From positions 620,001 to 684,000 of the forward strand of contig NZ_VIVQ01000001.1 in assembly GCF_007829035.1 (NCBI RefSeq): DNA of 64,000 bases, written 5' to 3'. Positions within the stretch are counted from its first letter, which is position 1, and each line of letters begins with the position of its first letter. This DNA is from Rudaeicoccus suwonensis (lineage in GTDB: Bacteria > Actinomycetota > Actinomycetes > Actinomycetales > Dermatophilaceae). Both the position numbers and the translations under genes were made by a program. Shown piece by piece: positions 2-61,249 of the stretch. Under the pieces are notes generated by a model. That model saw only the letters and a list, made by a program, of their open reading frames with translations. It was not told the DNA's origin and made no database searches.

Positions 2-3000
2 CTGCCGTGGGCACCGACGGCCGACAACGGTTACGTCTGGGCCATGGTCATCACGCCCGACCAGAGCAAGGTCGTCATCGGCGGCCAGTTCAGCACGCTT
101 AGCGGCCAGTCGGTCTACGGCATGGGCGCCGTCGACGCGACCACGGGCGCAGTGCAGCCGTGGGCTGCGAACGCGACGATCCAGGATTACAACAACGGCG
201 CGATCGACACGCTCACGACCGATGGCAACCAGATCTACGGCGGCGGTTTCGCCTATGGTGCCGGTGCCACGTTTGAGGGCACGTTCGCACTCAATCCCAA
301 CACCGGCGCGATCAACTGGCTCAACGACTGCCAGGGCGACACCTATGGCACGCTGCCGGTCGGGCAGGTGCTCTACACCGTCAGCCACGCGCACAACTGC
401 CAGATGATCGGTGCCTTCCCGCAGAGCAACCCGTGGGCGATCAACCAGCGCCACGCACTGGCGTTCACGACCTATCCGACCGGCACCAACTCTGGCCCGG
501 ACGAATACGGTTGGAACTACGCGGGAATTCCGGATTCCTCACTGCTGCAATGGTTCCCACAGTTGTACACCGGCACCTACACCGGCCAGGACCAAGCGGC
601 TTGGTCGGTCACCGGCAACTCGCAGTACATCGCCCTCGGCGGTGAGTTCCCCGGCGTCAACTACAAGTCACAGCAGGGCCTGACCCGGTTCGCGATCTCG
701 AGTCTGGCGCCGAACAAGATGGGCCCGGTCGCCGCGACCGGTTCCACGAACCCGGTGGCGATTCCGTTGGCCGGCAACTCGATCCGGGTGAGCTGGCAGT
801 TGCCGTGGGATCCGGACAACAACACCCTGTACTACAAGGTCTACCGCTCCGGCACGACAGCGCCGGTGTACACCACGACGCAGAACTCCAACTACTGGAC
901 AAACCCGACGGTCGGCTTCATCGACACGACTGCACCCGCGGGCGGCAGTTACACCTATACGGTCGTGGCGAGTGATCCCTTCGGGAACACACTGACGTTA
1001 CCGGCGACCAACAGCGTCACCCCAGGCACGGCATCGTCGAGCAAATATGCCGGAGATGTCAGTCAGGACGGTGCCAGCGACTTCTGGCGCATGGGTGAGA
1101 GCGCCGGCCCGACGGTCTACGACAATGTCGGTTTCAACGACGCCACAGCTCAGTCGGGAGTGACCTTCGGCACCCCCGGTCCGCTCAGCGGCGACCCGAC
1201 CACCGCGGCGACATTCAACGGCACCTCCACCGGAGCTGTGGCCACGAATTCGACTGTGACCCCGACGAATTCGCTCACGATCGAGGCATGGTTCAACACG
1301 ACCACAACCTCCGGAGGCAAGATCGTCGGGTACGGATCGAGCCAGACCGGTCTGAGCGGCAACTACGACCGACAGATCTACATGGACAACGCCGGACACC
1401 TGATCTTCGGTGTCTACAACGGCGGAACCCAGACCATCCAGAGTGCCAACACCTACAACGACGGCAACTGGCACTACGTGGTCGCCACCTTGAGTGCCAC
1501 CAACGGCATGACGCTGTATGTCGACGGCCGCAAGGTGGGCACCAACTCGGGCGCCACGACCTTCCAGCCGTACACCGGTTACTGGCGGATCGGCGGTGAC
1601 CAGCTCGCCGGCTGGCCCAACCAACCGAGCAGCAACTACTTCGCCGGGTCGATCGGTGACGTGGCGATCTACCCGACAGCGTTGAGCATCCAACAGGTTC
1701 AGACGCACTACACCGACGGCGGTGGCGTGCTCAACCTGCAGCCGGTTCCGACCGACGCCTACGGCAAGCTGGTCTACAACGCCAACCCGGATCTGTACTG
1801 GCGTCTCGACGAGTCGTCCGGTCCGACCGCGTTCGACACCAGCCCGAACATGGACAACGGCGTCTACAGCTCGACCGGCGTCACCTACGCGGCGACCGCC
1901 AGCCAGATCCCGGGCACCAGCAACACCGCCGTGACCTTCGACGGCCAGTCCGGCTCGATCGGCTCTACGACGATGGCGCAGGCGCCGACGGTCTACACCG
2001 AGTCGTTGTGGTTCAAGACGACGACGACCTCCGGTGGAGTGCTGATGAGCTACGGCGACCAGCAAAGCGGCCTGAGTTCGAACTACGACCGCGAGATCTG
2101 GATGACCCCCTCCGGTCAGCTCAACTTCGGCGTCTGGACCGGCAGTATCAACTCGGCGACCTCACCGCTGTCCTACAACGACGGCAAGTGGCACCAGGTA
2201 GTCGCAACCCAGGGCCCGGACGGCATGACCCTGTATGTCGATGGCGCTGTCGTGGCAACGAACGCCCAGACACAGGCGCAGTCGTACTCCGGTTACTGGC
2301 GCGTCGGTGGCAACACCGCCTGGAGTGGCAGCAACTACTTCGCCGGCACCATCGACGAAGTGGCCGCTTACTCGCACGAGTTGAGCGCCACCGATGTGGC
2401 CAACCAGTTCGCGGCCGGCGGCGGCAGCGTCCCGGCGCAGGCTCCGACGGCGTCGTTCACGGCGAGCACCAGTGGTTTGGGTGTGAGTGTGAATGGGTCG
2501 GGTTCGACGGATCCGAATGCTGGTGGGTCGATTGCCTCGTATGACTGGAATTGGGGCGATGGCACTGCTGATGGTTCTGGTTCGTCGGCGACGCACACGT
2601 ATGCCGCTGCTGGGACGTACACGGTGACGTTGACGGTGACTGATGCTGCGGGGTTGACGAACTCGACCACGCAGAGTGTGACGGTGACTGCTCCTGCGCA
2701 GGCTCCGACGGCGTCGTTCACGGCGAGCACCAGTGGTTTGGGTGTGAGTGTGAATGGGTCGGGTTCGACGGATCCGAATGCTGGTGGGTCGATTGCCTCG
2801 TATGACTGGAATTGGGGCGATGGCACTGCTGATGGTTCTGGTTCGTCGGCGACGCACACGTATGCCGCTGCTGGGACGTACACGGTGACGTTGACGGTGA
2901 CTGATGCTGCGGGGTTGACGAACTCGACCACGCAGAGTGTGACGGTGACTGCTCCTGCGCAGGCTCCGACGGCGTCGTTCACGGCGAGCACCAGTGGTTT

Positions 3001-4021
3001 GGGTGTGAGTGTGAATGGGTCGGGTTCGACGGATCCGAATGCTGGTGGGTCGATTGCCTCGTATGACTGGAATTGGGGCGATGGCACTGCTGATGGTTCT
3101 GGTTCGTCGGCGACGCACACGTATGCCGCTGCTGGGACGTACACGGTGACGTTGACGGTGACTGATGCTGCGGGGTTGACGAACTCGACCACGCAGAGTG
3201 TGACCGTCGCACCGGCACCGACGGTAATCGCGTCCGACGCGTTCAACCGGACAGTGGCCTCAGGCTGGGGTGTTGCCGACAGCGGTGGCACCTGGGCTGT
3301 CAGCGGCACCGGGTTCTCGATCACTCCTGGTGCAGCGGTGATGCCGCTGGCGACGGCCGGTGCGAGCCCGAGCGCTTTCCTGAAGTCGGTCTCGACGATC
3401 AACACCGACGAGCATGTGACGGTCGCGTTGAACAAGGCCCTCACTGGCAACGGTGCGTACATCTACGTGATCGGCCGGTGGGTCAAGAACGTCGGCGACT
3501 ACCGCGCCAAGGTGCAGGTCCGTGCCAACGGCACCGTCGCCCTGGGCATCAGCCGTTTCGACGGCTCCACCGAGGTTGCCGCCGTTCCGCTGACGGTGAT
3601 CTCCGGACTGACCGTCCAGCCGGGCCAGGCACTCAACATCCGCTTCGACGCCACGGGCACGAGCCCGACGACGTTGCAGGCGAAGGTGTGGGCTGCGGGC
3701 ACCACCGAGCCCAGCGCATGGCAGGTCAGTGCGACCGACACGACGGCGGCGATGCAGGTGCCCGGCGCAGTCGGCCTCGGTGCGTACCTGTCCGGCAGCA
3801 GCACGAGTGCACCGGTCACGGCCACCTTCAGCGGGTTCACCGTGTATGACGCATCCACCGTCCCGCTCGCCGCGCAGGCGAACGTGCGGGTCGGCGGCAA
3901 GATGATCCCGGCGAAGGTCACCCGGCCTGCACCGACCAAGTCGAAGCTGCAAAAGCTCACGACAGTGACCAAGGCGAACGCTCGTTCGCTGGGTGCGGTC
4001 AGCCGATGGTGGCATCCGTGA
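2..4021 (+). CDS. Secreted/surface LamG-PKD multidomain protein (5' partial)
   Basis: The reading frame is open from the first complete codon of the window, so the true start and any signal peptide lie upstream; an internal ATG occurs at 44. The visible part begins with beta-propeller-like repeats (first ~220 residues), then a fibronectin-like segment, two LamG/concanavalin-like lectin domains (about residues 345-560 and 575-790, counted from the ATG at 44), three PKD domains (798-1054) and a C-terminal beta-rich domain ending in WWHP. There is no LPXTG anchor. LamG and PKD modules usually bind glycans or mediate adhesion, so a matrix or cell-surface role next to the polysaccharide operon is inferred. 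The stop overlaps the next start. One rare TTA codon is in frame at 998-1000. Family assignment is secure; substrate is unknown. Confidence 0.85.
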   Translation: MPWAPTADNGYVWAMVITPDQSKVVIGGQFSTLSGQSVYGMGAVDATTGAVQPWAANATIQDYNNGAIDTLTTDGNQIYGGGFAYGAGATFEGTFALNPNTGAINWLNDCQGDTYGTLPVGQVLYTVSHAHNCQMIGAFPQSNPWAINQRHALAFTTYPTGTNSGPDEYGWNYAGIPDSSLLQWFPQLYTGTYTGQDQAAWSVTGNSQYIALGGEFPGVNYKSQQGLTRFAISSLAPNKMGPVAATGSTNPVAIPLAGNSIRVSWQLPWDPDNNTLYYKVYRSGTTAPVYTTTQNSNYWTNPTVGFIDTTAPAGGSYTYTVVASDPFGNTLTLPATNSVTPGTASSSKYAGDVSQDGASDFWRMGESAGPTVYDNVGFNDATAQSGVTFGTPGPLSGDPTTAATFNGTSTGAVATNSTVTPTNSLTIEAWFNTTTTSGGKIVGYGSSQTGLSGNYDRQIYMDNAGHLIFGVYNGGTQTIQSANTYNDGNWHYVVATLSATNGMTLYVDGRKVGTNSGATTFQPYTGYWRIGGDQLAGWPNQPSSNYFAGSIGDVAIYPTALSIQQVQTHYTDGGGVLNLQPVPTDAYGKLVYNANPDLYWRLDESSGPTAFDTSPNMDNGVYSSTGVTYAATASQIPGTSNTAVTFDGQSGSIGSTTMAQAPTVYTESLWFKTTTTSGGVLMSYGDQQSGLSSNYDREIWMTPSGQLNFGVWTGSINSATSPLSYNDGKWHQVVATQGPDGMTLYVDGAVVATNAQTQAQSYSGYWRVGGNTAWSGSNYFAGTIDEVAAYSHELSATDVANQFAAGGGSVPAQAPTASFTASTSGLGVSVNGSGSTDPNAGGSIASYDWNWGDGTADGSGSSATHTYAAAGTYTVTLTVTDAAGLTNSTTQSVTVTAPAQAPTASFTASTSGLGVSVNGSGSTDPNAGGSIASYDWNWGDGTADGSGSSATHTYAAAGTYTVTLTVTDAAGLTNSTTQSVTVTAPAQAPTASFTASTSGLGVSVNGSGSTDPNAGGSIASYDWNWGDGTADGSGSSATHTYAAAGTYTVTLTVTDAAGLTNSTTQSVTVAPAPTVIASDAFNRTVASGWGVADSGGTWAVSGTGFSITPGAAVMPLATAGASPSAFLKSVSTINTDEHVTVALNKALTGNGAYIYVIGRWVKNVGDYRAKVQVRANGTVALGISRFDGSTEVAAVPLTVISGLTVQPGQALNIRFDATGTSPTTLQAKVWAAGTTEPSAWQVSATDTTAAMQVPGAVGLGAYLSGSSTSAPVTATFSGFTVYDASTVPLAAQANVRVGGKMIPAKVTRPAPTKSKLQKLTTVTKANARSLGAVSRWWHP
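2435..3204 (+). repeat. Three tandem 261-bp PKD-encoding repeats
   Basis: Units begin at 2435, 2696 and 2957, giving an exact period of 261 bp (87 codons). By eye the three copies are identical at DNA level until they diverge at 3205. Codon choice inside is rich in T-ending and GGG/GTG/TTG codons, unlike the C-ending codons of the flanking LamG domains. Each unit encodes one PKD domain followed by an Ala-Pro linker. Confidence 0.95.
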
Positions 4022-22809: not shown

Positions 22810-24162
<1,353 letters not shown>

Positions 24163-24204
24163 TCGCAGCATCGACATACCAATGGACCGCCGGAAGGAGT
24201 GGAC

Positions 24205-24744
24205 ATGACACGGGACGCCCGCCCAAGCGGCCGCAACCAGCCTCGTTCGTCCACCCGTCCGGCGGTCAACCGGCCGGTCTCCGGGCGCCCGTCGGCCCCT
24301 CGGGGCACGCAGACCAAGCCGTCGACGAAGCCGGCTCGTCGTGCCCGGGTGACAAACTCCCGGGTGAGCCGCACCCCGCGGAATCCGCGCTCGATGCGGC
24401 GGCTTGCGGTCATCGGTGTGCTGCTGGTCTTCCTGGCCGTCGTCATCACGCCGACGCTGCGCGCCTATCTCGCCCAGCGCTCGCAGATCGGCCAGTTGAC
24501 TCAGCAGGTCGCCGCCCAGCAGGCCAACATCACCTCGTTGCAGAACCAGCAGAAGCAGTTGAACGACCCCAAGTACATCGCCGCCCAGGCGGGCGCACAG
24601 TTGGCATTCGCCAAGCCGGGTCAGACCCTGACGATCTACGTCACCACGGAGCCCAGCGCAGCGGCGAAGGCGGCCGCAGCGGCCAAGAAGGCCACGTGGT
24701 ACGGCTCGCTGTGGCAGTCGGTCGTCAACTCCGGCAAGCACTGA
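24205..24744 (+). CDS. FtsB/DivIC-family septum formation initiator
   Basis: The 179-residue protein has a long basic, Arg/Pro-rich cytoplasmic tail (~1-65), one transmembrane helix (LAVIGVLLVFLAVVITPTL), and an extracytoplasmic coiled coil (QIGQLTQQVAAQQANITSLQ) with the Asp-Pro-x-Tyr-I-x-x-x-A motif that typifies FtsB/DivIC. In the family it forms part of the FtsQ-FtsB-FtsL complex that activates septal wall synthesis. GGAAGGA six bases upstream supports ATG 24205 over GTG 24199. The Ala/Lys-rich C-terminus is unremarkable. Confidence 0.88.
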   Translation: MTRDARPSGRNQPRSSTRPAVNRPVSGRPSAPRGTQTKPSTKPARRARVTNSRVSRTPRNPRSMRRLAVIGVLLVFLAVVITPTLRAYLAQRSQIGQLTQQVAAQQANITSLQNQQKQLNDPKYIAAQAGAQLAFAKPGQTLTIYVTTEPSAAAKAAAAAKKATWYGSLWQSVVNSGKH

Positions 24745-24754
24745 ACGCGCTCGT

Positions 24755-25342
24755 ATGACGCATCAGCCTGATTCCTCCGTGGACCCTGCCGACATCGCGG
24801 CGATGGAAGCACAGCTGGGGCGTCTGCCTCGCGGCGTCGTCGACATCGCGCACCGTTGCCCGTGCGGCTGCCCGGACGTGGTCCGCACGCTGCCGCGTCT
24901 GCCCGGCGGCACGCCCTTTCCGACAACCTTCTATGCGACCTGTCCGAAGCTGACCGGCGCGATCAGCACGCTGGAAGCCCGGGGGATGATGCGGCAGATG
25001 ACGCAGGATCTGGCCGACGACCCTGTGCTGGCCGCCGGCTACCAGGCTGCGCACGAGGACTACCTGCGCCGCCGCGCGGACCTGGGGCAGGTCGCCGAGA
25101 TCGACGGTATTTCCGCCGGTGGCATGCCCGACCGCGTCAAGTGCCTGCACGTCCTGGTGGCGCATTCGCTGGCCGTCGGGCCCGGCGTCAATCCGCTCGG
25201 CGACCGCGCCCTCGAGGCGCTGCCGCAGTGGTGGCTGGGCGGCTGTTGCTCAGGCGCTGAGGGTGCCGACGCTGGTGATGCGGACACGACAGATCGCAAC
25301 GACGCGGCAGATCACAACGGCACGACGGATCAGCAGGTATGA
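24755..25342 (+). CDS. DUF501 family protein
   Basis: This 195-residue protein belongs to DUF501, recognisable from HRCPCGCPDVVRT, the PFPTTFYATCPKL segment, and RVKCLHVLVAHSLAVGPGVNPLGD. The conserved Cys and His residues suggest metal binding, but no activity is established that I know of. It always tends to sit between the FtsB-like gene and the exopolyphosphatase gene in actinobacteria. The last ~30 residues are a low-complexity Asp/Thr-rich tail that may be strain-specific. The stop overlaps the next ATG by four bases. Confidence 0.88.
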   Translation: MTHQPDSSVDPADIAAMEAQLGRLPRGVVDIAHRCPCGCPDVVRTLPRLPGGTPFPTTFYATCPKLTGAISTLEARGMMRQMTQDLADDPVLAAGYQAAHEDYLRRRADLGQVAEIDGISAGGMPDRVKCLHVLVAHSLAVGPGVNPLGDRALEALPQWWLGGCCSGAEGADAGDADTTDRNDAADHNGTTDQQV

Positions 25343-26283
25343 CGCGCGTCGCCGCCGTCGATTGCGGCACCAATTCGATCCGGTTGCTCATCGCAGACAC
25401 CGACGGTTCTCGCCTGCACGACCAGGTGCGACGGATGGAGATCGTGCGCCTCGGCCAGGGCATCGACCGAACCGGCCGAATCGCTGCCGACGCCATGGAG
25501 CGCACGCTCGCAGTCGCCCGCGAATACGCCTCGCAATGCACGCAATTGAAGGTCGATCGGGTGCGATTCGTGGCCACCTCGGCTTCCCGTGACGCAGCGA
25601 ATGCCGCCGATTTCACTGATGGTGTCGCCCGTGCCTTCGAGCGTTTCGGCATCGATCCGGAGGTCGTCACCGGTGCCGAAGAAGCGGCGCTGAGCTTTCG
25701 TGGTGCGACGAGCGTGGTCGGTGCGGGGATGCCTGCGCCATACCTGGTGATCGATCTGGGCGGAGGATCGACGGAGTTCGTGCTGGGCGAGCGGGAGGTT
25801 CGCGCCGCACGGTCGGTCGACATCGGTTGTGTGCGCCTCACCGAACGTCGGCTGCACACCGACCCGCCCACGGATGCCGAGATCGCGGCGACAATTGCGG
25901 ACATCAGTGCTGCGATCGACCAGGCCGCCGCCGAGGTGCCGCTGGATCAGGCCCGCACCCTTGTCGGACTGGCCGGCTCGGTGACGACGGTGACGGCACA
26001 CGCGCTGGGGCTGTCGTCATACGACCCGGATGTCATCGACGGGGCGCGGCTGCCGGTCGACCGGGTGATCGAGTCCTGCAATGCGCTGCTGCACGCGACC
26101 CGCGATGAGCGGGCCGCGATGGGCTTCATGCATCCGGGCCGTGTCGACGTGATCGGCTCCGGGGCGCTGATCTGGCGCACCATCGTCGAGCGCCTCGCTG
26201 GCGTTGCCGGTCTCACCGAGGTCGTCACGAGCGAGCACGACATCCTCGACGGCATCGCCCTCGGGCTCGGCGACCAGCACTGA
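25339..26283 (+). CDS. Ppx/GppA family exopolyphosphatase
   Basis: The 314-residue protein has the ASKHA-fold Ppx/GppA motifs: VAAVDCGTNSIRLLIAD at the N-terminus, FVATSASRDA, GAEEAALSFRG, and the second phosphate loop VIDLGGGSTEFVLG. It lacks the C-terminal HD-like domain of enterobacterial GppA/Ppx and matches the short actinobacterial type. Members hydrolyse polyphosphate or (p)ppGpp. Which substrate dominates here cannot be told from sequence. ATG 25339 overlaps the DUF501 stop. A tRNA gene starts 13 bp after its stop. Confidence 0.9.
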   Translation: MTRVAAVDCGTNSIRLLIADTDGSRLHDQVRRMEIVRLGQGIDRTGRIAADAMERTLAVAREYASQCTQLKVDRVRFVATSASRDAANAADFTDGVARAFERFGIDPEVVTGAEEAALSFRGATSVVGAGMPAPYLVIDLGGGSTEFVLGEREVRAARSVDIGCVRLTERRLHTDPPTDAEIAATIADISAAIDQAAAEVPLDQARTLVGLAGSVTTVTAHALGLSSYDPDVIDGARLPVDRVIESCNALLHATRDERAAMGFMHPGRVDVIGSGALIWRTIVERLAGVAGLTEVVTSEHDILDGIALGLGDQH

Positions 26284-26296
26284 CTACTCTGGGCCT

Positions 26297-26369
26297 GCCC
26301 TCGTAGCCCAACGGCAGAGGCAGGCGACTTAAAATCGCTGCAGTGCGGGTTCGAATCCCGTCGAGGGCA
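26297..26369 (+). tRNA. tRNA with anticodon UAA (Leu codon UUA) but class I body
   Basis: A 73-nt cloverleaf folds with acceptor GCCCTCG/CGAGGGC, a three-pair D stem, anticodon stem GGCGA/TCGCT, loop CTTAAAA with anticodon TAA at 26330-26332, a five-base variable loop (GCAGT), T stem GCGGG/CCCGT with TTCGAAT, and discriminator A at 26369. CCA is not encoded. The anticodon reads UUA (leucine), yet bacterial leucine tRNAs normally carry a long variable arm, which is missing here. The isotype is therefore assigned from the anticodon only. Confidence 0.85.
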
Positions 26370-26499
26370 CTGCAGGTTCGACGTATGACATCAACGCGAG
26401 GCCGTGACCTGAGCACGCTGTGTGGCGGTGAGGTACCCACGGCGGGCACCACCGGCCCCTGCGGACTGCACTGCTATGGCGCGTGATGTCTCAGCGGAT

Positions 26500-26539
26500 G
26501 CGTGATCCCCAAGGAGGGAGCGTGATCCCCAAGGAGGGA
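26500..26539. repeat. Exact tandem 20-bp duplication
   Basis: GCGTGATCCCCAAGGAGGGA occurs twice head to tail, at 26500-26519 and 26520-26539. Confidence 0.9.
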
Positions 26540-26561
26540 ATCCGGTCCACCGGTCCGCAGC

Positions 26562-26670
26562 TTCGGTGATGTCGGCCCGTCCGCCGGTCCGCCGGGTTAG
26601 CAGCGTCGCAGGTTCGGTGGCCTCGGCTGGGGTCGCAGCGTCGCAGGTTCGGTGATGTCGGCCCGTCCGC
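26562..26670. repeat. Interleaved direct repeats
   Basis: A 23-bp sequence (TTCGGTGATGTCGG and following) occurs at 26562-26584 and 26648-26670. A 20-bp sequence (GCAGCGTCGCAGGTTCGGTG) occurs at 26600-26619 and 26636-26655. Confidence 0.85.
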
Positions 26671-26819
26671 AGGTCCGGTAATGCCCGCAGGGGCGCGCGC
26701 CACGAACGTCCGGCAGCCGATGGACGCCAGCAGTTGTTGCACCACCATCCGCTGGTGTCGATCGGAGCGGTTTCCTCGGACTGTAGTCATGAGATGTCAT
26801 TCCTGGTCGCTACCGGGTC

Positions 26820-26940
26820 GAGGAAGCGGCACATGCTGACATCTCGTGGGTGCGGCGGCTTGAGGAAGCGGCACATGCTGACATCTCGTGGGTGCGGTGG
26901 CTTGAGGAGGCGGCACAAGCTGACATCTCGTGCGCGTAGC
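26820..26940. repeat. Tandem 42-bp repeat, three copies
   Basis: Units start at 26820, 26862 and 26904. The core GACATCTCGTG recurs in each and once more near 26963; its inverse GAGATGTCAT occurs at 26791. Units are directly adjacent, without spacers. Confidence 0.9.
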
Positions 26941-27087
26941 TCGTCCGATGACCGGCAACGACGGACATCTCGTGGGTGGCGCCTACCGGAAACTCGCCGA
27001 ATCGGCGAATTATCTGTGGCCAGTGGGGCCCATGAGACCAATGCGACCGATGTGGCGCTGAACCCGACCGAATCGGCGACTTGTGCA

Positions 27088-27147
27088 TGATCAGCCGCGC
27101 TCTGATCAGCCTCGCTCTGATCAGCCTCGCTCTGATCAGCCGCGCAC
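27088..27147. repeat. Tandem 15-bp repeat, four copies
   Basis: TGATCAGC begins at 27088, 27103, 27118 and 27133. Each unit contains the palindrome TGATCA. The array ends about 60 bp beyond the stop of the minus-strand permease gene and contains no obvious terminator. Confidence 0.9.
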
Positions 27148-27206
27148 CACCAGTCGCGGCCCACAGCGCAGCCGCCCTCGCCGCATGCTGTCAGCGCACG
27201 AGATCC

Positions 27207-45969: not shown

Positions 45970-46449
45970 TCAGGGCCGGTCGGGGACGATCTCGGGCTGG
46001 CTGGACCACGGGAAGTCGATCCACAGATCGGTGCGCTTCCAGACGTACTCGCACTTGACGATGGAACGCGGCTTTTCGTATATCACCGCGCACCGGGTCT
46101 GCTTGACGTGGCCCTCGCAGAATGTGCGGACCAGATCCAGCGTGCCACCGGTGTCGGCGACATCGTCGATCACGAGCACGGTCGCGCCGGACAGATCCAC
46201 CGGCTGGGGAACCGGTGGAAGCACCACCGGCATGGCCAGGCGCTCGTCGACACCGGTGTAGAACTCGACGTTCATGACGTGGACGTTCTTGATGCCGAGC
46301 GCGTAGCTGATCGCGCCGGCGGGGATCAGGCCACCGCGGGCAATGGACATGATCAGGTCAGGCTCGTAGCCGTCATCGGCGATGGTTTGGGCCAGCTCAC
46401 GACTGGCGGTGCCGAACAGGTCCCAGGTGAGGATCTCGCGCTGCGTCAT
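45970..46449 (-). CDS. Phosphoribosyltransferase (xanthine/guanine type)
   Basis: The 159-residue protein carries the PRPP-binding motif VLVIDDVADTGGTL and an upstream ARGGLIPAGA loop. The C-terminal WKRTDLWIDFPW segment fits xanthine or xanthine-guanine phosphoribosyltransferases of the Gpt-like type. It would salvage a purine base to the nucleotide using PRPP. I placed the start at ATG 46449; earlier in-frame codons overlap the divergent neighbour. It converges on lysX and diverges from the P-loop kinase gene with only 31 bp between starts. Confidence 0.82.
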   Translation of the reverse strand: MTQREILTWDLFGTASRELAQTIADDGYEPDLIMSIARGGLIPAGAISYALGIKNVHVMNVEFYTGVDERLAMPVVLPPVPQPVDLSGATVLVIDDVADTGGTLDLVRTFCEGHVKQTRCAVIYEKPRSIVKCEYVWKRTDLWIDFPWSSQPEIVPDRP

Positions 46450-46480
46450 ACTCCACAGTCTGGCGGATATCGTGCGACGA

Positions 46481-46990
46481 GTGACCCACCAGCTGGTATT
46501 GCTCAATGGTCCGCCCGGTGTCGGCAAGTCGACGCTGGCGCGGCGCTATGTCGACGAGCACGACGGATCGATGTGCGTCGACATCGATCTGCTGAGAGAG
46601 ATGTTCGGTGTGCGGGTGCGCCATGAGACGCGATCCCTGCTGACGTCCCGGGTCGTGGCACTGAACGTCGTCGCGGCCGGCCTCGCGGGAGGATATGACG
46701 TGTGGGTGCCGCAGCTGGTGCTCGACACCGCATTCGTCGATGAGTTGGCGGGTGTCGCGGGCGGGGCGGGTGCGGAGTTCAAGGAGGTTCTGCTGATGGA
46801 CAGTCTGCAGCACATGCAGCGACGAGTGGCTGAGCGTGCGCGTGAGTTCGATCCTGATGCGAACGAATTAGCCTCGTATCACGAGCGTTTCGTGCATTCC
46901 ATCGGAGTGCGGCCAGAGGTGCTGATCCTCAACTGTGGCGAGGGTCTGCAGGTGCAGACGTATGACGCCCTGCTGCAGGCGATCGCATGA
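46481..46990 (+). CDS. P-loop ATPase/kinase-like protein
   Basis: The 169-residue protein starts with a nucleotide-binding loop, LVLLNGPPGVGKSTLARRY, and resembles small AAA-33/zeta-type kinases. A second acidic region (CVDIDLLREMFG) fits the substrate site of such kinases. I chose GTG 46481; GTG 46472 is equally possible and neither has a strong ribosome site. The stop overlaps the amidohydrolase ATG by four bases, so the pair is translationally coupled. A rare TTA codon is in frame at 46868-46870. The phosphorylated substrate is unknown. Confidence 0.7.
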   Translation: MTHQLVLLNGPPGVGKSTLARRYVDEHDGSMCVDIDLLREMFGVRVRHETRSLLTSRVVALNVVAAGLAGGYDVWVPQLVLDTAFVDELAGVAGGAGAEFKEVLLMDSLQHMQRRVAERAREFDPDANELASYHERFVHSIGVRPEVLILNCGEGLQVQTYDALLQAIA

Positions 46991-55205: not shown

Positions 55206-55380
55206 GGTTGGCGCGCACTACTCGTCGTGGGAGATCCGATCCGGCTCGCGGGTCGTGTCCACCTCACCGGCTACGATCGTGGTGCACGACTGGCGCAGGT
55301 GGGTCACCACCGGGGAGTGCACCGCTCGAGATCGCATCGCCCGCCTGGGTGCCCTCATCACTGATGAGGAGTATGTCGAA

Positions 55381-56228: not shown

Positions 56229-59200
56229 TCACTGGAAGTCACGCGAGCGGGTGCGCACGTGGATGGTCAGGTGTTCGAGCTTGTCCGCCACCAGATTGAC
56301 GACACCCTCCTTCGACCGTTCGAGTATGCCGCGCACCACCATCGCGGGCGCCGCTCTGGCGATGCGGCGGTGTCGATGCCAGACACCGCGGGACACGATG
56401 ACGTTGAGGATCCCGGTTTCGTCTTCGAGGTTGAGGAAGGTGATGCCGCTGGCGGTCGCCGGCCGTTGCCGATGCGTCACAACCCCGGCGACATGGATCC
56501 GCCGGCCGGTCTCGAAGTGCAGCAACTGGGTGATCGGCAGCACTCCGCGGGCATCCATGTCGGCGCGACAGTGCTGCATGGGATGGTCGGCCGGGCTGAT
56601 GCCGGTCGACTGCAGGTCGTGCGCCAGCAACTCGCCCAGGCTGAGTTCCGGCAGCAGCGGAGGCTGGTAGGGCACCCGCACCTCCAGCTGGCCGGAGCGG
56701 ATCGATGCTGCCTCGGCTGACTGCCATAGCGCCGCGCGTCTGGAGCCGGCCATCGAGTCGAGCGCACCCGAGAGCGACAGCGCCTCCATCTGCTCGGTGG
56801 TCAGTTCCGTCCGGCGCGCCAGATCGGCGAGGTCGCGGTAGGGCCCACCGAGATTGCGTTGCTGCACGATGCGCTCGGCAGGTGCCGCGCCCAACGCGGT
56901 GATGTCGGCCAGGCCGAGGCGCACAGCGTGCTGCCAGTCGCGGCGATGCTCCTGCCAGTCCGGGGGTGCAGCTGCATCGAATTCGCCGATGTCCGTGTGT
57001 GCATGATCGTGCAAGCACTCGTCGCGGCCGCCTCGGCGGGCCAGTGCGTCGGCTGACTCGGGTTCGAGGTCGGCGTACACCGACGAGTGGACGATGTCGG
57101 GCGACAGTACGGTCACGCCGTGCCGGCGGGCATCGCCGGTGAGGGTCTGCGGGGAGTAGAAACCCATCGGCTGCGCACGCAGCAGGGCAGCCAGGAAGGC
57201 CGCCGGGTAGTGCAGTTTGAGCCACGAACTGGCATAGACCAGCACCGCGAAACTCAACGCGTGCGACTCGGCGAAACCGAAGTTCGCGAAGGCCTCGATC
57301 TTGTTGTAGATCTCATTGGCGACGTCATCGGACAGACCGTTGGCCGCCATACCGGCGAACAGTTTGGCGCGCAGCGAATCCATACGTTCGACACCGCGTT
57401 TGGAACCCATCGCCCTGCGCAGCAGGTCGGCATCGGCGGACGTGCACCCACCGACCGCGATCGCCATCTGCATCAGTTGCTCCTGAAAGAGCGGCACACC
57501 GAGGGTGCGCTCGAGCACGTCCTTCAGCAGTGGGTGCGCGTAAGTGACGTCTTCCTGGCCGGTGCGCCGACGGATGTAGGGGTGCACGGCGCCACCCTGG
57601 ATCGGCCCGGGGCGGATCAGACCGATTTCGATCGCAAGGTCGTAGAAGGAGCGCGGTTTCAGCCGGGGAAGGGTGCCCATCTGGGCGCGACTCTCGACCT
57701 GGAAGACGCCGATCGAATCGGCCCGGCACAGCATGTCGTAGACACCCGGCTCGTTGCGGGGGATGGTCTGGATCCGCCACTGCTCATCGAAATGGCGTTC
57801 GACAAGGTCGAAGGTGTGCTGCAGCGCGGAGAGCATCCCGAGTCCTAACAAGTCGAACTTCACCAGGCCCATCCAGGCGCAGTCCTCCTTATCCCATTGC
57901 AGGACAGTGCGATTGGTCATACGCGCGTGTTCGATCGGGCAGACCTCACCCACCGGACGATCGGTGAGCACCATGCCGCCGGAGTGGATGCCGAGGTGAC
58001 GCGGGTAGCCCAGCACCTGGTGCGCCAGGTCGATGACAGGGGCCGGGATGTCGTGATCCTGGCTCGAAATCTCAGCGCCCCAACGCTCGACCTGGCGAGA
58101 CCAGGCATCCTGCTGGCCCTGGCTGGCGCCGAGGGCCTTGGCCATGTCGCGCACGGCGTTCTTGGGCCGGTAGGTGACGACATTGGCGACCTGGGCCGCG
58201 TTGTGCCGGCCGTAGCGGTCGTAGACGTGCTGGATGACCTCCTCTCGTCGGGCCGAGTCGAAATCGACGTCGATGTCAGGCGCCTCCGCGCGCAACTCGG
58301 ACAGGAATCGCTCGAACGGCAGACCGTAGAAGATCGGGTCGACCACCGTGATGCCCAGGACGTAACACACCGCCGAAGCCGCCGCCGATCCTCGCCCCTG
58401 GCACAGGATCCCGTGGTTGAGAGCAAACTGAACGATTTCGTCAACGATCAGGAAATAGCCCGGAAAGTCTTTGGCTTCAATGACTTTCAGCTCACGTTCG
58501 AGGCGTTCGTATGCCGCAGTGTTGTCCGCCGGGTAGTGCTTCGCCGCGCCGCGCATCGTGAGTTCACGCAACCAGCTCATCGGGGTGTGGCCGTCGGGAA
58601 CCTCCTGCCGCGGTAGTCGTGGCGTGGCCGCGCGAAGGCTGAAACCCAGATCGTCCGCCAACTCGACCGTGCGTTCGACCGCACCGGGGAATCGTGCGAA
58701 CCGGGCCGCCATCTCGGCGCCGCTACGGATGTGGGCGCCGGGGGTCCCGGGCAACCAGCCGTCGAGTTCTTCCAGGCTGCGCCGCGCGCGGACGGCGGCC
58801 AGGGCGGTCGACAGGGGGTACTGCCCAGGGTTGGCGTAGTGCACCGCGTTGGTCGCGACCGTCTGCGCTCCCGCTTCGAGCGCGACCGCGGCCAGTCGGT
58901 CACACCGGGTGCTGTCGCCCGGCGAACCATGATCGGTCAACTCGACGAAGACGTTCGATCGGCCGAAAAGCATTTGTAGATGGCGTAATTCGGTGACTGC
59001 AGCAGCGTGGCCGTGGATCTCTAGCGCTCGCGGGACGCTGCCCTTGCGGCATCCGGTGAGCACCGTCCACTCACCCGCAGCCTCCGCGGCGACCGCGTCG
59101 AGGTCGTAGACCGGACGGCCTTTCTCCGCGCCCTCGGCCAACTGGGCGGTGGTGATGGTGCGGGCCAGCCGTCGATAGCCGCCCTCGCCGCGTGCCAACA

Positions 59201-59642
59201 CCACCAGGTGGGTGCCCTCGGGGTCGGCGTGACCGTTCTGCGGCGCGGTCAGATCCAGCGACAACTCTGCGCCGAAAACCGTTGTCAGGCCGAGGGTGTC
59301 GGCTGCCTCGGCGAGACGCACCACGCCATACAGTCCGTCGTGATCGGTCAGTGCCAGACCGTGCAGGCGATGCTGGGCGGCTGCGGTCGCCAGAGCCTCC
59401 GGTGATGCGGCACCGTCGAGGAAGCTGTAGTGCGAGTGCGCATGCAACTCGGCATAGGGCACCACGGGTCCGGTGTCGAGCTGAAGATCCGGAGCCTTGA
59501 ACGGTTGCCGTTTGCGGGACCAGCCGGGTGCGTCACCGCCGTCTGCGGGGCGGCTGAAATCCTCGCGGTCGGGTGGGCGCACGCCCTGCGAGAGCGCCTG
59601 CTCCAGCTGGGACCAGGGGATGGCCGGATTAGACCAGCCCAT
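56229..59642 (-). CDS. dnaE2: Error-prone DNA polymerase III alpha subunit DnaE2
   Basis: The 1137-residue protein is a full DnaE2. The N-terminal PHP domain begins with YAELHAHSHYSFLDGA near residue 62. The polymerase palm has the catalytic aspartates in PDIDVDFDS near residue 455, followed by GRGSAAASAVCY and the tandem HhH and OB-fold C-terminus. In mycobacteria DnaE2 is the translesion polymerase of the SOS mutasome that acts with ImuA' and ImuB; here it is encoded 12 bp after imuB. It converges on folD. Confidence 0.95.
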   Translation of the reverse strand: MGWSNPAIPWSQLEQALSQGVRPPDREDFSRPADGGDAPGWSRKRQPFKAPDLQLDTGPVVPYAELHAHSHYSFLDGAASPEALATAAAQHRLHGLALTDHDGLYGVVRLAEAADTLGLTTVFGAELSLDLTAPQNGHADPEGTHLVVLARGEGGYRRLARTITTAQLAEGAEKGRPVYDLDAVAAEAAGEWTVLTGCRKGSVPRALEIHGHAAAVTELRHLQMLFGRSNVFVELTDHGSPGDSTRCDRLAAVALEAGAQTVATNAVHYANPGQYPLSTALAAVRARRSLEELDGWLPGTPGAHIRSGAEMAARFARFPGAVERTVELADDLGFSLRAATPRLPRQEVPDGHTPMSWLRELTMRGAAKHYPADNTAAYERLERELKVIEAKDFPGYFLIVDEIVQFALNHGILCQGRGSAAASAVCYVLGITVVDPIFYGLPFERFLSELRAEAPDIDVDFDSARREEVIQHVYDRYGRHNAAQVANVVTYRPKNAVRDMAKALGASQGQQDAWSRQVERWGAEISSQDHDIPAPVIDLAHQVLGYPRHLGIHSGGMVLTDRPVGEVCPIEHARMTNRTVLQWDKEDCAWMGLVKFDLLGLGMLSALQHTFDLVERHFDEQWRIQTIPRNEPGVYDMLCRADSIGVFQVESRAQMGTLPRLKPRSFYDLAIEIGLIRPGPIQGGAVHPYIRRRTGQEDVTYAHPLLKDVLERTLGVPLFQEQLMQMAIAVGGCTSADADLLRRAMGSKRGVERMDSLRAKLFAGMAANGLSDDVANEIYNKIEAFANFGFAESHALSFAVLVYASSWLKLHYPAAFLAALLRAQPMGFYSPQTLTGDARRHGVTVLSPDIVHSSVYADLEPESADALARRGGRDECLHDHAHTDIGEFDAAAPPDWQEHRRDWQHAVRLGLADITALGAAPAERIVQQRNLGGPYRDLADLARRTELTTEQMEALSLSGALDSMAGSRRAALWQSAEAASIRSGQLEVRVPYQPPLLPELSLGELLAHDLQSTGISPADHPMQHCRADMDARGVLPITQLLHFETGRRIHVAGVVTHRQRPATASGITFLNLEDETGILNVIVSRGVWHRHRRIARAAPAMVVRGILERSKEGVVNLVADKLEHLTIHVRTRSRDFQ

Positions 59643-59653
59643 GACCGGCGCCC

Positions 59654-61249
59654 TCAGTCATAGCGGCCCTCGGCCCACCACTGCCGACCGTCGGTGATCA
59701 CCAGCCAGGCGGCATCATCGTTGTCTGCCAGTTGAAACCTGTTGACTGTTGCGGGGTTTCGCCACCACCGCTGGTTGATCGGCCACGGGCCGGCCCATGA
59801 GGTGATGCGCCGCCGGTCGGTCGGTAGCAGCAACCAGACCGGCTCCGAGCGCAGTGCGCCGCGCTCGTTGACGGTCACTGCGGTGCCGTCGGCTGTGTGC
59901 ACCCGCACCGTGAGAGCCTGCGCGAACACTGTGGCCGGAGCAGGGCCGGGCATGCTGCCTGGCCAGGGTTGCTCCAGTCGTCGCTCGCGCTCGGTCGGCA
60001 GCGCGTCGCCCCAGGGCCACAGGATCCGACGCTCATGCAGCAGACGCCCGCCGCCGACGGCGCTGGTCAGAACGCCGTCGTGACCCAGCCGGTGTTGCAG
60101 TCCGGTGAGAGCGAGCTCGATGCGCTCGTCGGGACGATCGCCCCACAGACCTTGAGCGTGATGTGCTGCGGCGTCCACGGATTCGGGTGAGATCTGCACG
60201 GTGCAGATGCGGTAGGGCAAGGCCTCGTCGTCGATGGTGGTGCTGTCGGTCGCGATGTCTTCGAGCTGCCAGCGCACTCGATCCAGGATCTCGGTCTGCC
60301 CGAACTGCCATGGGTGGCGCCAAATGCGCTCCAGCAGTCCGTCCGGCTCCAGCTGGACGCCCACCCGGATCTCGGTGCAGACCAGGGAGGAGTGGGTGAG
60401 CTGTTCGGTGAAGCGGGCGGCCGCCGGTCGGCACCGGGCGATGATCTGCTCGACCCGATCGGTTGGTGGCTCGAAATGGATGGTCGCGGTGAGATCGGCG
60501 GGAACGGTGCGCGCGTTCAGCGTCGGAGCGTCCTGGCCGCAGGCCAGCTTGTGGGCGTGCAGACCGGCGGCTCCGAAACGCGCGTGCACCTGATCGCGTG
60601 GCAGCTTTGCGAACTCGCCAAGGCGGCGAATGCCCATACGTTGCAACAGATGAGACATCTGTTTGTCGCAGGCGGTGCTCACTGGCAGCCCGGCGAGGAA
60701 GGCAGCCGAGCCACCGGGAGGTATGACGGTGACCGGTGTCGCGATGGTGGTGTTGCGGGCGGCGTGCTCGGCTGTGAAGAGCCCGTCGGCGACGGCCACG
60801 CGCAGATCGATGCTGGTGCGCAGGTCACGCTCGGCATACGTTCGCAGGTGGGAGAACAGTGCGTATGCCGCTTCGGATTCGCCGCCGTAGAACCGTCGCG
60901 GACCCTGCGCCTTGACCGCAGCGATGCCCGGCCGGACGACATGCACGTCAGGAACGATGTCCTCGATGATGCGGACCATAGGCTCGAAAGCACGGGTCTC
61001 GGCGAGGGTGTCCTGCGGCAGGACGATCAGATCGGGACACCGGTGTTGTGCCTGACGGAGGCGAAGACCGGCAGTTACGCCTTCGGCCACAGCCGCATCG
61101 GATGCGGCCACGATCACACTGCGGTCGGTGAGTGCCAGTGCTGCATCGGCGGGGATGCCCTGGATGAGACGAGTTGCCAGAACCGACCAGCCGGGGCACC
61201 ACAGCAACAGCACGCGGACCGGGTCGGCAGTGGCAGGTGAGGTGGTCAC
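59654..61249 (-). CDS. imuB: Y-family polymerase-like protein ImuB
   Basis: The ~531-residue protein has a Y-family polymerase fold, but the first catalytic Asp region is replaced (VLLLWCPGWSVLATRL instead of a DMDAFF-type motif), as in the catalytically inactive ImuB. A little-finger-like region and a C-terminal ImuB domain follow. A possible beta-clamp-binding stretch, AQGLWGD, lies near residue 390. The start GTG 61249 overlaps the imuA stop (GTGA). It should act as the mutasome hub linking the sliding clamp, ImuA' and DnaE2. Confidence 0.9.
   Translation of the reverse strand: MTTSPATADPVRVLLLWCPGWSVLATRLIQGIPADAALALTDRSVIVAASDAAVAEGVTAGLRLRQAQHRCPDLIVLPQDTLAETRAFEPMVRIIEDIVPDVHVVRPGIAAVKAQGPRRFYGGESEAAYALFSHLRTYAERDLRTSIDLRVAVADGLFTAEHAARNTTIATPVTVIPPGGSAAFLAGLPVSTACDKQMSHLLQRMGIRRLGEFAKLPRDQVHARFGAAGLHAHKLACGQDAPTLNARTVPADLTATIHFEPPTDRVEQIIARCRPAAARFTEQLTHSSLVCTEIRVGVQLEPDGLLERIWRHPWQFGQTEILDRVRWQLEDIATDSTTIDDEALPYRICTVQISPESVDAAAHHAQGLWGDRPDERIELALTGLQHRLGHDGVLTSAVGGGRLLHERRILWPWGDALPTERERRLEQPWPGSMPGPAPATVFAQALTVRVHTADGTAVTVNERGALRSEPVWLLLPTDRRRITSWAGPWPINQRWWRNPATVNRFQLADNDDAAWLVITDGRQWWAEGRYD

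Follow-up and report, generated by a model that had tools for sequence, protein, structure and literature searches.

Bacterial leucine tRNAs are described in reviews as class II molecules, with a long variable arm, as a rule (PMC9976931, PMC7609411). In E. coli, the reported leucine identity set consists of A73, A15-U48, G18G19, and A20a, and tRNALeu stripped of its long arm is still leucylated; an armless tRNALeu is charged by the human mitochondrial leucyl-tRNA synthetase (LeuRS), and human mitochondrial tRNALeu(UUR), which has no long arm, is charged by its LeuRS (PMC9976931). In Streptomyces, a high-GC actinobacterium, the bldA tRNALeu(UAA) is reported as the single UAA decoder, with UUA confined to auxiliary genes (PMC4932002). 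The nearest published hints of a naturally short leucine tRNA come from mycobacteria. The MenT3 paper on M. tuberculosis names “especially” tRNALeu-2, -3, and -5 as having long variable loops (PMC11541572), and singling these out as long suggests that the remaining tRNALeu of M. tuberculosis are short; the accessible part of that paper mentions no short leucine tRNAs and gives no anticodons. In the M. mucogenicum group, a cluster is reported to contain a tRNALeu(TAG) with a leucine anticodon on a short-loop body, as an extra copy beside a normal long one (PMC6582537). Another known arm-less tRNA with a leucine anticodon is tRNAMet-like and recently mutated.

Here, we describe a naturally short tRNA-Leu(UAA) gene in a 64-kb window (the whole stretch of DNA that was analyzed). 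Natural E. coli tRNALeu is class II, and its short forms are laboratory constructs, whereas the present gene is short in its natural state while sharing A73, A15-U48, G18G19, and A20a. Like human mitochondrial tRNALeu(UUR), its product has no long arm, but it forms a full canonical cloverleaf, whereas the anticodon branch of the human transcript is partly unfolded. As with bldA, a single UAA decoder was found; nevertheless, the tRNA has 73 nt and a class I body, in contrast to the 85-nt class II UAA tRNA of Streptomyces-like genomes, and UUA is not confined to auxiliary genes. Unlike the M. mucogenicum copy, it is the sole UAA reader found in its genome and occupies a conserved chromosomal place, and unlike the tRNAMet-like case, it has the nucleotides of leucine identity and is conserved in many taxa. 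On the best reading, its function would resemble that of other tRNALeu and that of animal mitochondrial tRNALeu.

A tRNA-Leu(UAA) gene with a class I body

ARAGORN called a single tRNA gene in the window, tRNA-Leu(UAA) at 26297-26370 on the + strand, and Rfam RF00005 matched over its full length at 26297-26369, with 57.4 bits (cut-off, 29) and an E value of 9.3e-10. The features of the gene are as follows.

26297..26369, + strand: tRNA-Leu(UAA), class I (short) body, 73 nt (ARAGORN; RF00005; covariation)
26306..26321, + strand: D-arm GCCCAACGGCAGAGGC, with a 3-bp stem, A14 A15, G18 G19, and C20 A20a G21 A22
26330..26332, + strand: anticodon UAA (ARAGORN, position 34)
26340..26344, + strand: variable loop GCAGU, 5 nt, with U48, the partner of A15, as its last base
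26369, + strand: discriminator A73

The cloverleaf comprises a 7-bp acceptor stem, a 3-bp D-stem (G10-C25, C11-G24, C12-G23), the anticodon loop CUUAAAA, and a standard T-arm with the T-loop UUCGAAU; CCA is not encoded. The preliminary description of this DNA, a class I body with a UAA anticodon and a five-base variable loop, was thus exact, as seen with ARAGORN, Rfam, and the drawn cloverleaf. Since the variable loop has 5 nt instead of forming a long arm, this is not a class II tRNALeu, although it probably functions like a tRNALeu. A lengthened acceptor domain together with a long variable arm marks the tRNASec-like and allo-tRNA types (PMC7609411); neither is present in this tRNA, whose acceptor and T arms are 7/5 and whose variable loop has 5 nt.

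The free fold of the tRNA had a z-score of -2.64 against shuffled sequences, 4 of 200 shuffles folding equally well. In an alignment of 31 sequences (30 UAA tRNAs, this one included, and the UAG tRNA of the same genome), pairing was kept in 99.5% of 620 cells, and two-sided changes occurred at 14 of the 20 pairs, compared with a shuffle mean of 3.4 and with none of 500 shuffles reaching as high. The pairing is under selection. Neither the lost pairing nor the lost conservation of a pseudogene was seen, as the stems covary and the gene is conserved across the order and the class.

Genomic context of the gene

The tRNA lies 13 nt after the stop codon of ppx, at the end of the following series of genes.

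22882..24162, + strand: enolase, eno (Pfam PF00113, PF03952)
24199..24744, + strand: DivIC/FtsB-like septum protein (Pfam PF04977)
24755..25342, + strand: DUF501 protein, overlapping the ppx start (Pfam PF04417)
25339..26283, + strand: ppx (Ppx/GppA phosphatase), directly upstream of the tRNA (Pfam PF02541)

A sigma-70 type scan of 25900-27200 returned no promoter-like site, and the only terminator-like site in that interval lies 0.6 kb downstream of the tRNA. Co-transcription with ppx is possible, and the gene is presumably expressed and vertically inherited. Three short tandem repeats lie 3' of the tRNA, at 26500-26539, 26820-26932, and 27088-27145, with units of 20, 42, and 15 bases, respectively. 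Elsewhere in the window, a ZMP/ZTP riboswitch was matched at 55276-55357 with 62 bits. A phage or mobile origin of the gene was considered and rejected: its place after ppx is conserved, and no second copy of the tRNA 3' end was found in the window at up to three mismatches.

Leucine tRNAs of the genome

The genome of Rudaeicoccus suwonensis (3.83 Mb in 7 contigs, 99.95% complete) gave 46 tRNA matches that were read as anticodons, 45 of them distinct. Its leucine set consists of short UAA and UAG tRNAs and long CAA, CAG, and GAG tRNAs. Among the 46 matches, the UAA anticodon was found only once, in the gene described here. A class II leucine model (R2), built from 11 long leucine tRNA sequences, matched only CAG, GAG, and CAA; therefore, no long UAA tRNA was found in this genome, where the preliminary description had asked whether a standard class II UAA tRNA existed. 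One LeuRS scored above the family cut-off, in a 987-amino-acid frame, and its match spans positions 4 to 842 of the 843-position profile.

The short tRNA-Leu(UAG) (G000:C4:14537-14611; L042:11838-11915) has a long counterpart in each of the 12 further genomes in which a UAG tRNA was examined, close relatives included. It lies 5.7 kb from tRNA-Lys(CUU), and the long UAG gene of G008 lies near the tRNA-Lys(CUU) of that genome; it may be a recent replacement. The sole tRNA-Gln(UUG) (G000:C1:612903-612981; L045), 7 kb before the window, scored 39.5 bits, the lowest of the 46, and has a nine-base variable loop.

Distribution of short leucine tRNAs

The DNA of the UAA tRNA matched 37 of 38 genomes of the same family and order, its own genome counted among the 38. 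The best 30 of these 37 matches (its own and 29 relatives), taken as loci, all carried a short tRNA-Leu(UAA), and G028 was also read from the remaining seven. The preliminary description had named, as possible in other actinobacteria, a short tRNA after ppx, and this arrangement was indeed present: ppx lay upstream on the same strand in the own locus and in 13 of the 29 others (1.5 kb examined), with an opposite-strand ppx nearby in two more.

A covariance model of the short tRNA (R1) was used to search 298 Actinomycetota genomes at an E value of at most 1e-11, and matched 96 of them in 118 rows; the threshold is strict, and the 202 genomes without a match, two f17 genomes among them having been read, are not a count of absence. 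We read 110 of the 118 rows (30 plus 80 loci; one of the eight left out is the own UAG tRNA, known separately), and all 110 held a short tRNA with a leucine anticodon, mostly UAA, CAA, or UAG. At L099, ARAGORN called Phe(AAA), yet the loop is CUUAAAA. GAG and CAG seldom occurred on short bodies in this material: a dense tRNA array (L177, genome G304) has short GAG and short CAG leucine tRNAs, L490 has CAG, and the phage locus L442 has GAG.

A pattern scan of named genomes returned at least 119 stretches; the pattern itself requires the short loop and the D-arm, and the short form of its matches is given by construction. A short UAA call was obtained in 118 of these at least 119 loci, with L248 giving two calls, the second degenerate, and L299 being cut at its end. 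In loci of at most 8 kb each, ppx was present in 40 of the at least 119, 39 times on the same strand. The matches listed include Mycobacterium, Mycolicibacterium, Nocardia, Gordonia, Rhodococcus, Corynebacterium, Microbacterium, Arthrobacter, Amycolatopsis, Saccharopolyspora, Cellulomonas, Blastococcus, and others, together with metagenome bins labelled Chloroflexaceae, Deltaproteobacteria, and Acidobacteria. Of 151 genomes from the phylum that includes the Chloroflexaceae bin, 9 matched R1, and UAA was present in 8 of these 9. One Chloroflexaceae bin (L206) shows an array of 26 called tRNA genes and an overlapping tmRNA call, in which the UAA and CAA leucine tRNAs are short and the GAG and CAG ones are long.

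The leucine tRNAs of 10 genomes, read with R1 and R2, included exactly one UAA tRNA each. It was short, with no long one found, in seven (G000, G008, G110, G261, G320, G238, and G201), and long (85 nt) in all three f17 genomes, which appear to be Streptomyces-like, judging from their size and from this tRNA. CAA was short in G320 and G300, UAG was short only in the own genome, and all 10 had long CAG and GAG tRNAs; G238 also gave a CAG call of 79 nt, a second copy whose match covers only part of the model, and the UAG of G300 and the CAA of G058 were not among the model matches. One apparently Mycobacteriaceae-like genome had short UAA and CAA, a likeness to the M. tuberculosis case. Four further genomes, whose UAA tRNAs carry G73, also had a short UAA tRNA and no long one (4/4); CAG was not among the matches in G011.

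Short leucine tRNAs also occur in phages. The gene matched 94 phage records at an E value of 1e-3, and the 6 examined each contained at least one tRNA-Leu of less than 80 nt; the phages with short leucine tRNAs are named for Rhodococcus, Corynebacterium, Mycobacterium, Sinorhizobium, Bacillus, and Pseudomonas. Since phages carry them, transfer by phage is possible. Three such phages have non-actinobacterial hosts (Bacillus phage P59, L441; Sinorhizobium phage Phosso, L323; Pseudomonas phage vB_PseuGesM_254, L443) and carry UAA, UAG, or CAA tRNAs. Nine records of a plasmid collection matched the gene.

Leucine identity elements

Apart from the missing long arm, the tRNA carries the published LeuRS set (A15-U48, G18G19, A20a, and A73, with a 3-bp D-stem), and the “unusual identity elements” proposed in the preliminary description were not borne out. 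The D-loop pattern, A15, U48, and A73 occurred together in 5/5 leucine tRNAs and in 0/40 other tRNAs of the same genome. In a mixed tRNA set, they were found in 13/15 leucine and 0/47 nonleucine tRNAs, with 5 unscorable; the two leucine tRNAs that escaped were a call shifted by one base and a tRNA with an extra base before the D-loop.

Among 206 distinct short leucine tRNAs, phage copies included (1 of 263 calls was unparsed), A73 was present in 202, U48 in 205, and A15 in 203 of the 204 parsed; the D-arm and A15 frequencies carry a bias from the pattern and model used for collection, and U48 and A73 were not fixed by the pattern scan. The four exceptions to A73 were G73, all in UAA tRNAs of the own family. 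Because A73 is the key leucine determinant, we counted G73 against the leucine reading. At these loci (L055, L060, L061, and L070, in G011, G021, G019, and G001, respectively), G73 belongs to the one UAA tRNA that each genome yielded. The 400 kb tested of G001 contains almost no UUA, and selection on its G73 tRNA may therefore have been relaxed.

We also counted against the leucine reading the likeness of the body and D-arm to class I tRNAs, Arg above all. By plain identity over positions 1-26, the T-arm, and the acceptor, the body scored 0.75 to 0.81 with the own Arg tRNAs and 0.71 and 0.67 with the long Leu CAG and CAA tRNAs, respectively; the D-arm scored 0.80 with Trp, Lys(CUU), Asn, and Arg(ACG), versus 0.74 with Leu(CAG).

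UUA codons in the genome

The preliminary description had noted UUA codons as rare but present, at 998-1000 and 46868-46870. By arithmetic, both are in frame with ORFs, and further sites are found in dnaE.

998..1000, + strand: UUA in the PKD/laminin-G domain ORF 44-4021 (frame, Pfam)
46868..46870, + strand: UUA in the AAA-domain ORF 46382-46990 (frame, Pfam)
57846..57848, - strand: UUA in dnaE (stop-to-stop ORF 56232-59657), opposite CTG (Leu) of a relative; site highly conserved
58986..58988, - strand: second dnaE UUA, opposite CTC (Leu) of a relative; site poorly conserved

For the codon test, 458 kb of the own genome was aligned with 400 kb each of G009 and G001, with rRNA excluded and an identity cut of 40%; the ORFs were taken from stop to stop, and some sites may fall outside true genes. 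UUA was the rarest leucine codon, with 13 sites in 135 aligned ORF regions (46,878 alignment columns). The genes with UUA are dnaE (two), tsaD, dihydroorotate dehydrogenase, a DUF429 plus RelA/SpoT ORF, a Na/H exchanger, and a short-chain dehydrogenase. An initial count of 19/21 sites at Leu included 7, all Leu, in rRNA-operon ORFs, which were dropped; after rRNA removal and the 40% cut, by which one Ile site was lost, the count was 12/13, and with a third genome it was 14/16. At these 14 sites, Leu stood in every counted relative, and the other two aligned with Val and Thr, the Thr site being codon 4 of a stop-to-stop ORF and probably upstream of the start. One of the 14, Leu in G001, reads Ile in G009, where the identity of the alignment (37.6%) is under the cut. 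The Leu share at other codons was 0.77 for CTG, 0.76 for TTG, 0.10 for ATC, and 0.06 for GTC. The reverse test has few sites: the four UUA codons of G009 aligned with two Leu and two Arg (local identity at the Arg sites, 0.35 and 0.5), and the two of G001 with one Leu and one Tyr, the latter at an alignment end.

Alternative explanations

The preliminary description had raised another amino acid identity or a specialised RNA. Another identity, under which UUA would be ambiguous or reassigned, draws on the body being closest to class I tRNAs, on an acceptor stem and A73 identical to those of the own tRNA-Arg(CCU), and on the G73 of 4 of the 206 short leucine tRNAs; tRNAs with leucine anticodons are, moreover, known to have reassigned codons in yeast and in Ashbya mitochondria (PMC7609411). 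Nevertheless, U48 and A73 are kept in nearly all of those 206, the leucine D-loop and A15 are nearly universal, and UUA falls at Leu in 14 of 16 sites. Arginine identity also conflicts with position 35, as ArgRS expects C35 and the tRNA has A35. Given that the leucine identity set is present and that UUA mostly aligns with leucine, we consider another identity very unlikely, and the specialised RNA is likewise unlikely. A decayed gene, a pseudo-tRNA, or a nondecoding RNA would agree with the finding of no promoter-like site in the sigma-70 scan and with the distance of the terminator, and a class I body under a leucine anticodon is a conflict of the kind flagged by tRNAscan-SE 2.0 (PMC8450103). 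This reading has to face the maintained stems, with paired changes at 14 of 20 pairs, the conservation of such genes throughout the order and the class, and the finding of no other UAA tRNA though dnaE and tsaD use UUA; its probability is minimal.

The tRNA had also been proposed as a regulatory decoder similar to bldA, with UUA genes held until it accumulates, and both the rarity of UUA among the leucine codons and the finding of no other UAA tRNA in the genome would suit such a switch. However, the presence of UUA in housekeeping genes left the proposal unsupported: with two UUA codons in dnaE, a late-phase switch of the bldA kind does not fit; with dnaE, tsaD, and dihydroorotate dehydrogenase among its genes, UUA is not confined to auxiliary genes as in the bldA type, and it also occurs in the DUF429 plus RelA/SpoT ORF. 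Besides, the short UAA tRNA is widespread across taxa, whereas the Streptomyces-like genomes use a different, long tRNA (85 nt in 3/3 f17 genomes, versus 73 nt here). A bldA-like role is thus highly improbable.

Proposed function and origin

Overall, the gene very probably encodes a working leucine tRNA with a class I body, which reads UUA and is charged by LeuRS through the elbow and A73, as judged from the sequence comparisons. The single full-length bacterial LeuRS would recognize the short UAA tRNA as it does other bacterial leucine tRNAs, the points of recognition being A73 and the elbow (A14, A15-U48, G18G19 with the T-loop, and A20a). The enzyme would ignore the anticodon and the variable arm, and the long arm would be dispensable because A73 and the elbow are what bacterial LeuRS reads. 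The resulting Leu-tRNA would then decode UUA like any class I tRNA. Short bodies take the place of long ones for UAA and, in certain lineages, also for CAA or UAG.

As to the origin of these tRNAs, we tentatively suggest, with considerable doubt, that the short leucine tRNAs may form a single ancient lineage of their own, perhaps derived from a class I tRNA by gain of a leucine D-loop and not from a class II tRNA by trimming. Such a lineage might have replaced the long isoacceptors codon by codon (UAA most, then CAA or UAG) among Actinobacteria and within part of the phylum that includes the Chloroflexaceae bin, aided by phages, so that one LeuRS would serve two architectures; in the G73 lineages, where UUA is hardly used, the identity set might still be changing.

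Implications

A full-text search, with most subscription papers outside its reach, found no paper stating that actinobacterial leucine tRNAs are short, and the accessible parts of PMC11559606, PMC9569102, PMC6297222, and PMC6821328 contain no such statement. The class II rule for leucine has a large, little-noticed exception in Actinobacteria. Annotation software should not doubt leucine calls over an absent arm. Tools for tRNA sequencing are described as treating bacterial Leu as type II (PMC6297222), and tools with this assumption may misjudge reads from short leucine tRNAs. With a natural short tRNALeu, the need of LeuRS for the long arm can also be tested cleanly.

LeuRS is reported as a drug target in M. 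tuberculosis (PMC5038265), and the LeuRS of bacteria with both forms probably accommodates two tRNA shapes. The class II rule is broken in many Actinobacteria and in some genomes of another phylum, with the short tRNA being the only UAA tRNA found and, in some, the only CAA tRNA. The short UAA tRNA is a normal reader of UUA in many Actinobacteria, and the gene described here is an ordinary one among them.
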